DNA from: Aquirufa aurantiipilula
GTDB lineage: Bacteria; Bacteroidota; Bacteroidia; Cytophagales; Spirosomataceae
Length of the DNA: 64,000 nucleotides
Direction: 5' to 3'
Assembly: GCF_019923745.1 (NCBI RefSeq)
Contig: NZ_JAANOG010000008.1
Span: forward strand, 62,001 to 126,000
Position numbers and translations under genes: made by a program. Below the pieces are notes generated by a model, which did not search any database, had not been told where the DNA came from, and was given only the letters and a program-made list of their open reading frames with translations. Below, in pieces: positions 36,370 to 62,870 of this stretch. Numbering within the stretch: position 1 is the stretch's first letter; every line of letters begins with the position of its first letter.

Positions 36370-36515
36370 GTGATTACCATATATTTTTCGATGTTTAAAT
36401 TATCAGTTTCTTGATAATTATTATTCGTTTTAAATCCATGAGATGAATTGATATACTATTTTCTTTCATTTGCTGAAAGCTCACTTTGAAGAGAGCAATA
36501 TTGAATGAATAATAT

Positions 36516-36821
36516 ATGAAAACGAAAAACAGTGAATTTGTTAGTTTAGATCAATTTATTGAATCTAATTATGGTAATTCTGATAACAATTCGAGGGATC
36601 AATTTGAGTCAGGATATCAACATTTCAAATTAGGCTTCTTGCTTCATGAAGCTCGAAAAAATCAGGGATTAACCCAAGAAGAATTAGCCTTGAAAGTAGG
36701 GACTACGAAATCATATATTTCTAAAATTGAAAATGATGTGAAAGAAGTTCGATTGTCGACCTTGAAGAAAATAGTAAAAGTAGGTCTAGGAGGTCAACTT
36801 CATATATCCATTGATTTTTAA
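36516..36821 (+). CDS. XRE-family HTH protein, antitoxin-like, without its usual toxin
   Basis: The protein has 101 residues. The C-terminal 60 form a Cro/CI-type helix-turn-helix (LGFLLHEARKNQGLTQEELALKVGTTKSYISKIENDVKEV), closely like antitoxins of HigB/RelE-type pairs in Bacteroidota, which follow a toxin of about 110 residues. The 146 bases upstream are AT-rich and hold no complete toxin gene. A short frame ending LLKAHFEESNIE and TGA at 36506-36508 may be the toxin's C-terminal relic. The stop overlaps the convergent dnaX stop within TTAA. Confidence 0.8.
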   Translation: MKTKNSEFVSLDQFIESNYGNSDNNSRDQFESGYQHFKLGFLLHEARKNQGLTQEELALKVGTTKSYISKIENDVKEVRLSTLKKIVKVGLGGQLHISIDF

Positions 36822-38620
36822 AATTCATAGTCCAATCCCATCCTTTGTTTCATTTCTACTAAAATAGGATGCTTCTCGGAAAGGTATTCGTACTTATCAG
36901 ATTGGGTATATAATACTTTTTTATCGCTTTTTTCCTGAACTAGGATATCCAGTTCAATGTCAATATCAAAATTATGAAGTGATGAGCGTAGTTGGTTTAA
37001 AACCTCCATTCGTATGGCTTCGTTAAACTGCTGGATTTGCAATTCGTTTTCTACTTTTAAATGCAATACCGTACCCACAAGTTCAATCGGCCGATTCATC
37101 ATGACATATTTATTGATGTCCTGATTAGCCTCATATGCCTTTGCGATTCGTATCCATTCTTGACTAATGTCCTCTAAAGTAAAGGTTTTATTCTCCGCCC
37201 CCGTGGCACTTCCTGTCAATAAGGTAGCTTCTTTTTGTTCTGCTTGTTTGGTTTCAACCAGTTTTTTTGCACTTCGCAAACCTGACGATTGGATGCTTGG
37301 TCGACTAGGGATAGGACTAGGGTTTGACAGGCTATTTTCAGGCAGCTCTGTTTTAACATCTTTTATTTCTTCTGAGGGAGTAGGGGCATTTTCTACTGGT
37401 AATTCCTGTTTTACTGAGGCATTTTGTTCAGGAACAAGCTTGTTTTCCAGGGTGGGATTGGCCGAAGCCTCAAGCTTTTTTCCAGCGCCGTCCTCCACCA
37501 CAGGTGTTTGGTTAGGCTTGAATGCCGAATTTAAGTAGTTGATTTTCAGTAAACTTAAATCCAAATGCAATCTTGGATTTTTGGCACTCTTATAATTTAC
37601 TTCTCCTTGAGCGCAGATATTCATGGCGGAAAGTATAAAAGAAGTGGAAGTTAATTCCGCCTGTTTTTTAAACTTGGCTTTACTCTCATCACTCATTTCC
37701 ATTAATGCCAAGGTTTTGGGGTCTTTGGCATATAATAATAAACGCAAATGCTCCATTAGCCCCGAAATAAACTGCATGCCATCAAAACCTTTTCGCATGA
37801 TTTCTTCAATAAGAAGTAGAACAGCCGTATGGTTTTGCTCTAACAAATGATCTGTTAGACTGAAGTAATAGTCGCTATCTAGGATATGTAAATTTTCTAA
37901 AACAGCCTTGTGGCGCAGGGTATTGTCGGTTGAAAAGGTGACATTTAAATCAAACATCGACAAAGCATCGCGCAAACCACCATCGGCTTTGATGGAAATT
38001 AATTCTAAGGCTGCAGGTTCTGCTGTGATATTTTCCTTTTCTGCAATGGATGCTAAATGCAAGGCCATGTCTTGCCATTTGATGCGGTTGAAATCGAAGA
38101 TTTGGCAACGTGATAAAATGGTAGGCAAGATTTTATGTTTCTCCGTAGTAGCCAAAATAAAAATGGCATAGGAGGGAGGTTCCTCCAATGTTTTCAAAAA
38201 GGCATTAAAAGCCTGGGCAGAAAGCATGTGAACCTCATCGATGATGTAGACCTTATAACGTCCGTTTTGAGGCGGATATCGAACTTGATCGATCAAACTA
38301 CGGATGTCATCCACCGAGTTATTCGAAGCAGCATCAAGCTCATGTATGGTCAATGAGGTATTTTCTTGGAAGGATTGACAAGAGGAACAAGCACCACAAG
38401 CTTCACCTTCTGCACTTTGATTTTCACAGTTGATTGTTTTGGCTAAAATACGCGCACAAGTGGTTTTACCCACGCCTCTTGGACCACAGAATAAAAATGC
38501 TTGAGCCAAATGATTCGACTTGATCGCATTCTTTAAGGTAGTGGTAATGTGGCTTTGACCAACCACAGAATCAAACTGGGTAGGACGGTATTTTCGCGCC
38601 GAAACAATAAAATTTTCCAT
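36818..38620 (-). CDS. dnaX: DNA polymerase III subunit gamma/tau, with predicted -1 frameshift product
   Basis: The 600-residue clamp-loader ATPase has Walker A GPRGVGKT (46-53), zinc cysteines Cys65, Cys75, Cys78 and Cys81, Walker B VYIIDEVHML, sensor ATTEKHKILPTILSRCQIF, and domain III to about residue 370. A Pro/Ser/Glu-rich linker and a tau-specific tail bind other replisome parts. Codons 380-382 read GGA AAA AAG. A -1 slip there gives one alanine and then TGA, ending the protein at 383 residues, just after domain III, as in E. coli gamma. The coaE fusion gene ends 40 bases upstream. Confidence 0.95.
   Translation of the reverse strand: MENFIVSARKYRPTQFDSVVGQSHITTTLKNAIKSNHLAQAFLFCGPRGVGKTTCARILAKTINCENQSAEGEACGACSSCQSFQENTSLTIHELDAASNNSVDDIRSLIDQVRYPPQNGRYKVYIIDEVHMLSAQAFNAFLKTLEEPPSYAIFILATTEKHKILPTILSRCQIFDFNRIKWQDMALHLASIAEKENITAEPAALELISIKADGGLRDALSMFDLNVTFSTDNTLRHKAVLENLHILDSDYYFSLTDHLLEQNHTAVLLLIEEIMRKGFDGMQFISGLMEHLRLLLYAKDPKTLALMEMSDESKAKFKKQAELTSTSFILSAMNICAQGEVNYKSAKNPRLHLDLSLLKINYLNSAFKPNQTPVVEDGAGKKLEASANPTLENKLVPEQNASVKQELPVENAPTPSEEIKDVKTELPENSLSNPSPIPSRPSIQSSGLRSAKKLVETKQAEQKEATLLTGSATGAENKTFTLEDISQEWIRIAKAYEANQDINKYVMMNRPIELVGTVLHLKVENELQIQQFNEAIRMEVLNQLRSSLHNFDIDIELDILVQEKSDKKVLYTQSDKYEYLSEKHPILVEMKQRMGLDYEF
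37460..37496 (-). promoter_or_regulatory. Predicted programmed -1 frameshift cassette in dnaX
   Basis: On the minus strand, GGAGG (37496-37492) is followed by exactly 10 bases, the heptamer A AAA AAG (37481-37475) in the correct phase, a five-base spacer CTTGA, and GGC-UUCG-GCC (37469-37460), a stable tetraloop hairpin. The -1 frame reads GCT TGA immediately after the heptamer. The same element order stimulates gamma synthesis in E. coli dnaX (established there); activity here is inferred. Confidence 0.7.
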
Positions 38621-38660
38621 ACTGCAAGTTACAATTTGAGGTCATAAAACCCAAATCGAT

Positions 38661-40082
38661 TTAAGGGATTCGGAGGGTGGCGCTTACTGGAAAATGGTCA
38701 GTTGGATATCGGTTAGACCAGGTCTCAGAATGTGTGGCATGTTGCTCACAGCTAACTCCATTTTTCACGAAAATATAATCGATTTGACTGTTTTCTCTTT
38801 CCTCTTTGAAGGCATTGAATGAGTTTTTGGGGCCATAATGTCCATTTTTACTAATGCTTTCAGCATTTGTTAATCGGTCTGGATTCTTAGGGTCTACTAA
38901 GATTTGAATCGGTTCATCTTCTGGCTTGGCATTAAAATCTCCCAATAAAATGACAGGACTATTTTTAGCGATTTCTTTGATTTTAGTCAATACTAATTTG
39001 GCACTTTCTCTACGGGCTACTTTTCCCAAATGGTCAAAGTGGGTGTTGAATACATAAAACTTCTTTTTTGTTTTCAAGTCTTGAAAATGTCCCCAGGTAA
39101 CAACACGTCGACAAGCCGCATCCCAACCAAAACCTACTTTATCACATGAATCTGATAACCAGAAAGTTTTTTGTTCCAAGACTTTAAATTTCTTGGTATT
39201 GTAAAACAAAGGAGAAAATTCACCCTCCTCTTTTCCATCGTCGCGGCCCCGTCCAAACCAAGTATAGCCAGGTAATCTTTCCGCAAAATCTTTGATTTGG
39301 TGAATAAATGCTTCCTGCATACCAATAATATCAGCTTGGTGATATTTGACTAATTCAGCGCAGTGATCCTTGCGATTTGACCATTGATTAATGCCATCTG
39401 ACTTGGTATCCATTCGGATATTGAAAGTCATGGCTTTGATTTGTCCTATACTTGTCTGACTGAAAATTAAGAGTGTTATCAAAATGAGGGAAAGTCTTTT
39501 GAAAATGGCTTCTACTTGTGGCCAAACACGGTCATTTTTTCCATTTTTTACAATCAAATCAACACCTTCGGTGTATTGTTCGTAGCTGGGTTGGTTTTGT
39601 AACATTTTCATGTTGTCTTCAAAGGTTAAATGGTTTCGTTTTTCTAGCCGTTCAATGCGTTCTTCTAAAGGACAAACTACGGCAATTAATTGGTGTATAT
39701 AGTCTGGTTTATTTTTATTCGTCAAAAGGGCTGCCTCATATAATTTAAAGGGTGCCGAACTGGGAACTTGTGCCCATTGCTGCAATGCTTCACGAACAGC
39801 TGGATGAATAATGTGGTTTAGAGCAGATAATAAATCCGGGTTGTTTTTAACTCGACTACGAATATAATCTCGGTTATAAGTGCCTTGATCATCAAAACTT
39901 TCTGGGCCAAAGGCACCCTTGATTTTTTGTTGAATAACAGGGTTAGTTGTCACTAATTGGTGGGCAACTTTATCTGCTTCAAAAACAGGAACGCCTAGAC
40001 AAGCAAAAATCCGGCAAATGATTGATTTGCCGGATCCCATACCGCCTGTGATACCTATAAGAGGTCGAAGGCTTTTTTCCAT
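38661..40082 (-). CDS. coaE: Fusion of dephospho-CoA kinase and exported endonuclease/exonuclease/phosphatase-like domain
   Basis: One 473-residue frame holds two proteins. Residues 1-about 193 are a full dephospho-CoA kinase (P-loop GITGGMGSGKS, substrate Asp in VFEADKVAHQ, IIHPAVR), the last step of CoA synthesis. Residues 195-214 (KRLSLILITLLIFSQTSIGQ) read as a complete signal peptide. Residues 215-473 form a DNase I-like EEP domain (AMTFNIRM, IGMQEA, VFNTHFDH, ILLGDFNA, PTDHFPV). Elsewhere these are separate genes. No ATG lies at the junction. A lost stop and start, a genuine fusion, or a sequencing error are all possible. yajC lies four bases upstream. Confidence 0.85.
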   Translation of the reverse strand: MEKSLRPLIGITGGMGSGKSIICRIFACLGVPVFEADKVAHQLVTTNPVIQQKIKGAFGPESFDDQGTYNRDYIRSRVKNNPDLLSALNHIIHPAVREALQQWAQVPSSAPFKLYEAALLTNKNKPDYIHQLIAVVCPLEERIERLEKRNHLTFEDNMKMLQNQPSYEQYTEGVDLIVKNGKNDRVWPQVEAIFKRLSLILITLLIFSQTSIGQIKAMTFNIRMDTKSDGINQWSNRKDHCAELVKYHQADIIGMQEAFIHQIKDFAERLPGYTWFGRGRDDGKEEGEFSPLFYNTKKFKVLEQKTFWLSDSCDKVGFGWDAACRRVVTWGHFQDLKTKKKFYVFNTHFDHLGKVARRESAKLVLTKIKEIAKNSPVILLGDFNAKPEDEPIQILVDPKNPDRLTNAESISKNGHYGPKNSFNAFKEERENSQIDYIFVKNGVSCEQHATHSETWSNRYPTDHFPVSATLRIP

Positions 40083-61712: not shown

Positions 61713-62870
61713 CTACAAAGGAAAATAGATTAATTCTTCACTCGTATCATTCGCTTTTTGCCAAGCTAGAGCATCAGCATGCTGCCAATGGACTAAGTCG
61801 CCAGAACCATTATGTTTCAAGACCTGAGCTTGTTGCTTATTTGTCCATTGTATAGGAATCCAATGATCCAAATTGGCTAATGGGGCTGGAAGACCAGTAA
61901 TTTTAACTTGAGGAAAAGGAGTTGTTTGATCTTGTAACCAAGATAAAAAATAAATGGAAAAACACACCAAGGTTGAGATGGGATTTCCTGGAAAGGCAAA
62001 AATTACTTTTCCATCTTCTCGACTACCTACCCAGAGTGGTTTGCCTGGCTTTTGGGCTATTTTATGGAATTTGGCTTCAAATCCTAAATCCTTTAAGATA
62101 CCAGGAATATAATCTTTCTTACCTGCGGAAACGCCGCCAGATAGCAATAGGATATCGCTTGTTAACAAGCTGTTCTTTAATGCTTGATGAATTAAAGTAG
62201 GATCATCCGGTAAATGATGGTGTTTAGATGATATACCCAACTGCTGCAATGCCGATTGCATCATGATGGAATTAGAACTTCTAATTTGATGGTCTAAAGG
62301 TGTTTCTTCAATGGAAACCAATTCATCTCCTGTTGAAAATACATGTATTTCGCCCAGAGTTTCAACCCATAATTTGGAATAACCAACGCTGGCTGCTATG
62401 GCTATATGGTTGGCTTTTAATCGTGTACCTTTTTTTAAAATGACTTGTCCCTGAAGAATGTCGCTCCCTCTATGATGAATGAAATTCCCAATTTCTATAT
62501 TTTGGTTTTTAGTAGAAACCCATTTTTCTCCTTCTTTTTCAAAAAAATCGAGGTCTTCTACTTTAATGACTGCTACCGCATTGATGGGAAGTGGTGAACC
62601 CGTCATGATTTCCCAAGCACCATTTGGGTTTTCTAGTTTTTTTTGAACTTCACCTGCAAAGGCAATTCCTTCCCATTTCCATTCTTGAATGTTCACATTT
62701 CCAATAGCTATGCCATCCATCATGACACGATCAAAAGGAGGGAAGTCGCGATCGGCCAATAAATCTTCCATTAAAATACCTCCTAAACAATCAATCAGAG
62801 GTACATAGGCTTTTTGCTTTGGAACAGGGATTTCTTGTAATATTTGAAAAGCTTCTAGGGGTGTCAACAT
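61713..62870 (-). CDS. moeA: Molybdopterin molybdotransferase
   Basis: The 385-residue protein inserts molybdate into adenylated molybdopterin. MoeA features are PFDRVMMDGIAI, GEVQKKLENPNGAWEIMTGSPLP, LLSGGVSAGKKDYIPGIL and FAFPGNPIST. Its divergent neighbour is moaC, and a MOSC protein lies 16 kb away. It starts a three-gene minus-strand operon with the epimerase and the BioF-like gene. Confidence 0.93.
   Translation of the reverse strand: MLTPLEAFQILQEIPVPKQKAYVPLIDCLGGILMEDLLADRDFPPFDRVMMDGIAIGNVNIQEWKWEGIAFAGEVQKKLENPNGAWEIMTGSPLPINAVAVIKVEDLDFFEKEGEKWVSTKNQNIEIGNFIHHRGSDILQGQVILKKGTRLKANHIAIAASVGYSKLWVETLGEIHVFSTGDELVSIEETPLDHQIRSSNSIMMQSALQQLGISSKHHHLPDDPTLIHQALKNSLLTSDILLLSGGVSAGKKDYIPGILKDLGFEAKFHKIAQKPGKPLWVGSREDGKVIFAFPGNPISTLVCFSIYFLSWLQDQTTPFPQVKITGLPAPLANLDHWIPIQWTNKQQAQVLKHNGSGDLVHWQHADALAWQKANDTSEELIYFPL

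Follow-up and report, generated by a model that had tools for sequence, protein, structure and literature searches.

In the dnaX gene of Escherichia coli, a Shine-Dalgarno (SD)-like motif, AGGGAG, ends 10 bases before the heptamer A AAA AAG, at which a -1 frameshift takes place; the new frame meets a stop almost at once (AG TGA), a stable stem-loop lies on the 3' side, and the product ends after domain III. Thermus thermophilus dnaX likewise provides two DnaX products from one gene, and there RNA polymerase slips on nine A's, as described in PMC1088944 and PMC5009743. In the two-ORF dnaX genes of Antonov et al. (2013) it is tau that needs the shift; their account assigns 12 of 17 such cases to poly-A (PMC3711429), and some of the five non-poly-A cases may, as far as that account describes them, be of the kind reported here. 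A further related case is prfB of Bacteroidia, in which an internal SD is kept though initiation rarely uses SD sequences (PMC8710568). Most bacteria besides enterobacteria and Thermus are, in the account of PMC3290774, without such signatures. An unpublished candidate for a reversed dnaX with E. coli-like signals is mentioned for Chlorobium phaeobacteroides (PMC5009743) and is, as presented there, a precedent in a neighbouring group. In the open-licence literature, no ribosomal dnaX cassette was seen described for the group considered here.

The site considered here lies in dnaX of Aquirufa aurantiipilula (Bacteroidota, Cytophagales, Spirosomataceae), within a stretch of 64,000 nucleotides (positions 62,001 to 126,000 of contig NZ_JAANOG010000008.1) that was analysed as a whole and is called the window; positions are counted from its first letter. 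With E. coli dnaX it shares an SD-like motif placed 10 bases upstream of A AAA AAG, the near-immediate -1 stop and a predicted product ending after domain III, so that the E. coli-like order claimed in an earlier note on this DNA agrees with E. coli dnaX in both order and spacing. It differs from E. coli (i) in the SD itself, which is GGAGG, (ii) in belonging to a phylum in which the anti-SD is occluded and most relatives use poly-A runs, and (iii) in a 3' stem that is marginal and varies across the genus. When compared with Thermus, two products would again arise from one gene (gamma being predicted here), but the window has only six A's together with ribosomal signals. Compared with the two-ORF genes, the polarity is the opposite one: tau is encoded by the zero frame, which continues for 218 codons beyond the shift site, and the two-ORF feature is absent. 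Finally, prfB likewise retains its internal SD, but its shift is +1, occurs at an in-frame stop, is autoregulatory, and has the SD 3 bases from the slippery codon.

The dnaX site and its proposed function

The features of the site, all on the minus strand, are as follows.

36818..38620, minus strand: dnaX, DNA polymerase III tau subunit, 600 aa, zero frame (TIGR02397, 429 bits)
37470..38620, minus strand: region predicted to encode gamma, read in the zero frame through codon 382 and from there in the -1 frame as GCT TGA
37492..37496, minus strand: internal SD-like GGAGG, read from the sequence
37482..37491, minus strand: 10-base spacer from GGAGG to the heptamer, read from the sequence
37475..37481, minus strand: slippery heptamer A AAA AAG, in frame, context GGA AAA AAG CTT GAG
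37470..37472, minus strand: -1 frame stop TGA, one codon past the heptamer, read from the sequence
37460..37469, minus strand: GGC-UUCG-GCC, weak candidate 3' hairpin of 3 bp, read from the sequence, with five bases (CTTGA) between heptamer and hairpin

The dnaX product also scores above the cut-off of NF011531, the NCBIfam gamma/tau equivalog. GGAGG, the 10 intervening bases, the in-frame A AAA AAG and the TGA, which the earlier note had located here, were read again in the minus-strand gene and are correct. Its further claim of a 383-residue -1 product ending right after domain III is borne out by translation: with a -1 slip (AAA AAA GCT TGA) the predicted gamma has 383 residues and ends GAGKKA, and the Pfam match to domain III ends at residue 371.

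We propose, with a probability of roughly 0.85, that ribosomes undergo a programmed -1 frameshift at this site, by which a single dnaX message yields both tau (600 residues) and the short clamp-loader subunit gamma (383 residues, domains I-III). An elongating ribosome would arrive at A AAA AAG while its 16S rRNA tail pairs with the GGAGG ten bases upstream, straining the register between ribosome and mRNA; the pair of tRNA-Lys would then re-pair one base back on AAA AAA, GCT would be read as one more codon, and TGA would end gamma. Ribosomes that do not slip would make tau.

Two neighbours of dnaX may be mentioned in passing. A small helix-turn-helix gene (HTH_3; plus strand, 36516-36821) is convergent with dnaX and overlaps its last 4 bases. 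Directly upstream (minus strand, 38661-40082) lies a single 473-aa frame in which residues 8-181 form a dephospho-CoA kinase (CoaE) and residues 218-463 an Exo_endo_phos domain, the two parts being separated by a hydrophobic, signal-peptide-like stretch. All or nearly all of this frame is matched by a single frame in 25 loci of the genus, the own one included, and in locus L085 of a sister genus; the CoaE part alone is matched in L020, L027, L031 and L035.

Conservation in the genus and polarity in sister genera

The heptamer by itself carries little information. Seven in-frame copies of A AAA AAG are seen in 47 genes of the window (the longest ATG frames of at least 150 aa, with uncurated starts), compared with 5.6 expected from codon shuffling, and it is hence the arrangement and its conservation that carry the weight of the case. 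Of 395 genomes searched in the phylum, 15 contain the full pattern GGAGG-N10-AAAAAAG-NNTGA and 2 a reversed-pattern control; according to BLAST, the window's own is the sole one of those 15 places located in dnaX.

A dnaX match was obtained for 33 of 36 other genomes of the genus (the three without a match are 81-84% complete), giving 34 loci together with the own gene. GGAGG-N10-A AAA AAG is in frame, with a -1 stop after one codon, in all 34, and it is embedded in a linker that is hypervariable in both sequence and length, with GGAGG beginning 32, 44 or 47 bases past domain III. Throughout these loci the cassette codons GAG, GGA, AAA and AAG are fixed. At the codon preceding GAG the residue is T, V, A or K, with G as the third base throughout; at the codon following AAG it is S, L, P, A or Y, and the third base is T throughout, which the -1 TGA needs. 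The sequence of the 10-base spacer varies among loci, whereas GGAGG does not. As a yardstick, domains I-III of the 32 full-length loci have 9 codon-invariant positions among 244 residue-invariant codons (Met and Trp excluded), and not one of 109 residue-variable codons there has an invariant third base. A separate observation concerns codon -9 before the heptamer (37507-37505, minus strand), whose third base is A in 34 of 34 loci, the residue being Q, L, T, P or A.

Conservation of heptamer, GGAGG and stop in close relatives, named beforehand in the earlier note as a check on its claim, is thus seen at every locus of the genus, and the synonymous-site conservation that it had asked for takes the form of four codon-invariant codons and two frozen third bases at residue-variable codons. 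The note had left GGAGG to be either a stimulator or a coincidence; the latter is ruled against, GGAGG being fixed at the nucleotide level. On this pattern of conservation we infer that dnaX contains a real, selected -1 frameshift signal. Rfam includes a dnaX element; a scan of window positions 36500-38700 at E-values up to 10 returned no dnaX element, and a single snoRNA match far below its gathering score.

Within the family, 106 of 111 genomes yielded a dnaX match, 97 of them outside the genus, and 81 of these 97 loci were read. Sixteen sister-genus loci have GGAGG-N10 in frame: 14 of them before G GGA AAG, where Gly-Lys replaces Lys-Lys and a slippery heptamer is still formed, and 2 before A AAA AAG. 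When spacings of 5-16 were allowed in 244 mapped loci, all 52 in-frame matches turned out to have a spacing of 10 (50 cassette loci, the own gene once more as L241, and L192, in which the match lies far downstream). According to PMC4066793, C_CC.A_AA.G, G_GG.A_AA.G and A_AA.A_AA.G are the most efficient heptamers in E. coli when stimulators are present, and the two heptamers found here are among these three. With four elements kept in a hypervariable linker in 34 of 34 loci of the genus, and with GGAGG-N10 kept in sister genera, the cassette is, judging from these alignments, not due to chance.

The sister loci also differ in polarity. Seven of them (L085, L101-L106) have a zero-frame stop immediately behind the heptamer, the arrangement that they have in common with the two-ORF genes of Antonov et al. 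In six of the seven, the -1 frame stays open for 204-248 codons, with a match to the C-terminal part of the window's tau at E-values from 2e-51 to 9e-31, and in L103 it runs off the contig. Since the zero frame ends at the heptamer, full-length tau needs a shift in all seven. A separate C-terminal piece made by re-initiation is possible in five of them on account of start codons in the -1 frame, that is, an ATG one codon into this frame in L085 and possible starts later in L102, L103, L105 and L106; L101 and L104 have no ATG, GTG or TTG within its first 60 codons. Nine sister loci have tau in the zero frame, and their -1 frame stops after 1 codon (six loci) or after 3-5 codons (L084, L086 and L107). 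It is quite possible, if short of probable, that one lineage of Spirosomataceae has exchanged A AAA AAG and G GGA AAG as its heptamer, and gamma and tau as the product of the zero frame, with GGAGG-N10 held fixed.

Candidate stimulatory elements: the 3' stem and GGAGG

The 3' hairpin of the window, with its three base pairs, is no better than shuffled sequence (z +0.84, or +1.01 on a slightly different stretch). The earlier note had thus overstated GGC-UUCG-GCC as a hairpin, and of the 'complete' cassette that it described, GGAGG, spacing, heptamer and stop stand, while the stem is marginal in this species. Six loci of the window's clade (L008-L013) show no stem either (z -0.34 to +1.25). Elsewhere in the genus the picture is different: a z of -2 or lower is reached in 17 of the 34 loci, for instance -2.8 in L014 and -3.9 in L036 (-2.0 and -3.3 on a slightly longer stretch), and a single 7-bp helix accounts for 15 loci (11 distinct sequences) of two clades with 94.8% of cells paired, compared with 26-61% for slid controls. 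For this helix, none of 500 shuffles came up to the observed cells paired, double-change cells or covariation score, but 398 of them reached its two doubly changed pairs and 497 its count of further pair types. The double changes may represent one event between the two clades, and covariation in the 3' stems is limited. Among the 16 sister loci, eight give no stem signal (L083, L084, L086, L087, L101, L104, L105 and L106), and a z of -2 or lower is found in L080-L082, L085, L103, L107 and L132. Hence, with a stem present in some loci and marginal in the window's species, GGAGG is to be counted the constant stimulator of the predicted signal and the stem its variable one, and the latter probably helps shifting in several species of the genus.

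It is then of importance how GGAGG might act in ribosomes of this phylum, for which pairing with the anti-SD is doubtful. As PMC9976891 describes, the 16S tail of Bacteroidia ribosomes is held sequestered by bS21, bS18 and bS6. We found bS21 in 61 of 61 family genomes and, by eye, Tyr54 in all 29 bS21 sequences parsed from 30 loci, the own genome included. An SD 4-mer core 4-18 bases before the start is present in 0 of the 47 window genes, and since 1.1 would be expected, this is weak evidence and speaks for no use of SD rather than avoidance; GGAGG is not depleted in coding sequence of the window (57 seen, 49.6 expected). These observations would fit a frameshift that is real but in which GGAGG acts without 16S pairing, be it through mRNA structure, a protein, or sequence effects in the P and E sites, and so would the finding, taken from PMC12421855, that prfB of F. 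johnsoniae shifts at a low level and nevertheless retains its motif. However, the fixed 10-base spacing is that of E. coli dnaX, as rRNA pairing predicts, GGAGG stays constant next to a spacer that varies, and prfB of the genus itself carries an internal AGGAGG beside its +1 site (kept in 3 of 3 loci, the +1 site being present in 26 of 30 family loci). We therefore consider action without pairing to be unlikely, and SD:anti-SD pairing at the dnaX GGAGG to be likely. The search for the 16S 3' end found none in the own genome or in any of five same-genus genomes searched.

Pairing during elongation has been discussed for prfB. According to McNutt et al., prfB of F. johnsoniae has a perfect SD and 523 of 726 Bacteroidia have the prfB frameshift; these authors suggest that the anti-SD is released during a pause (PMC8710568). 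By analogy, the dnaX cassette appears as the -1 counterpart of the prfB case. As an aside, a strong SD (AAGGAGGTG or AGGAGGTG) precedes the bS21 start in rpsU loci L275, L276 and L278 (genera g214 and g212), and no strong SD does so in four own-genus loci (L079, L293, L294 and L295).

A-runs in the phylum and the origin of the cassette

The 196 loci without a cassette comprise 65 from the family, 22 from other families of the order, 80 named Bacteroidota (the best 80 of 593 relatives, three of them unmappable) and 29 from a class sample (87 of 90 genomes with a match; 30 loci read, of which one was the own gene). A few genes count twice in this total, L243 being the same gene as L053. Across domains I-III, the DnaX proteins of Dyadobacter sp. 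CY343 (L161) and of a genome of the family in the tree (L099) do not differ, which marks the family as Spirosomataceae. In 164 of the 196 loci, 8-13 consecutive A's follow domain III at a distance of up to 300 bases (64 from the family, 18 from other families of the order, 56 named Bacteroidota and 26 from the class sample), and the run is exactly ten long in 135 of the 164. For the loci L161-L240 and L242-L270, we note runs of exactly ten in 42 of 56 (named, best 80 of 593 relatives) and 23 of 26 (class sample). For 160 of the 164 runs a stop is met no more than 12 codons away, be it in the zero frame or in one or both of the others, but a stop so close in one of two other frames is common by chance and hence weak evidence.

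The uniform A10 suggests a slippage-type dnaX, in both polarities, across much of the phylum. Most other Bacteroidota dnaX genes examined thus look Thermus-like, and their A-runs resemble both the Thermus slippage site and the two-ORF genes as presented by Antonov et al. (PMC3711429). Among the best 80 of 593 relatives, a run of 8 or more A's is absent from 21 named loci, with titles that are largely Bacteroidales. Outside the family, a single in-frame GGAGG-N10-heptamer was encountered, in L192; it lies 164 bases on, has no near -1 stop, and was taken as chance. L218 has a GGAGG upstream of an A10 run. As a general trait of Bacteroidota dnaX, the cassette of the earlier note does not hold up, runs of 9-11 A's being what prevails; this lineage is rather one with a predicted E. 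coli-like ribosomal cassette where most of its relatives have a slippage-type A-run.

RNA polymerase might also slip at the site itself, as in Thermus dnaX, with gamma made from altered mRNA. The A-runs that 164 of 196 other loci have in about this position favour this, as does the statement in PMC3711429 that two shorter homopolymers combined can slip and that a dnaX with seven A's is arguable; the site, however, has only six A's, and the usual length for slippage given in the same source is eight or longer. Moreover, none of the 34 same-genus or 16 sister cassette loci has eight or more consecutive A's up to 300 bases from domain III, and 14 of the latter use G GGA AAG; mainly on these two grounds slippage at the site was rejected, and we regard it as very improbable. 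Consistently, we know of no role in slippage for a GGAGG at a fixed distance upstream. Least probable of all is that no recoding takes place and that a peptide conserved for protein reasons drags the DNA pattern along, for Glu, Gly-Lys-Lys and a later Glu are indeed invariant in the 34 loci of the genus, but third bases (G and T) are fixed where residues vary, against a background of 0 in 109, which led us to reject it, and in 14 sister loci Gly-Lys stands for Lys-Lys with the heptamer still slippery.

Shifting on A AAA AAG has been linked to a sole tRNA-Lys (PMC5009743, in its treatment of such sites). UUU is the only Lys type among 30 of the 32 tRNA matches of the genome; since other tRNAs that one would expect are absent from the own assembly (none for Ile is among these 30), a second Lys tRNA could be missing. 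In a survey of 111 genomes, 107 of them with a match, tRNA-Lys does not separate cassette from poly-A types among the matches listed: an apparent tRNA-Lys(CUU) occurs, among these matches, in only two poly-A genera (g214 and g203; genomes G474, G506, G527, G542, G502 and G524), the other poly-A genera listed show UUU only, and the matches listed for cassette-bearing genera include none. Taken together, the sequence, its conservation at the nucleotide level, the sister lineages that need the shift for full-length tau, and the single type of Lys tRNA make production of gamma from the window's dnaX very likely.

In a tree of DnaX domains I-III (138 rows, many branches weak), the cassette loci form two groups among the family's poly-A rows. 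The rows of the genus have L085 in their midst, although it is a long branch and belongs to another genus. The tree needs two changes, and a single cassette clade was not rejected (AU p = 0.466, 67-row tree). As the outgroups are in the poly-A state, the simplest reading is a change from slippage to ribosomal shifting in dnaX. It is tempting to go further, although we do so tentatively and at somewhat less than even odds, and to suggest that slippage on A10 gave way to a ribosomal -1 shift whose signal works through true SD:anti-SD pairing in ribosomes that hide their anti-SD at initiation.

If this is true, the gamma:tau ratio would read out the freedom of the 16S tail, or bS21. The dnaX site provides a natural test of whether ribosomes that ignore SD sequences at initiation can use them in elongation. 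Where a sister locus has its zero-frame stop, it is on the shift that the replisome would rely for tau of full length. The relatives form a series in which one gene appears to keep both products while the recoding device differs, slippage of RNA polymerase on A10 in most of them and ribosomal shifting here, and among which the zero frame and the shifted frame exchange their roles.
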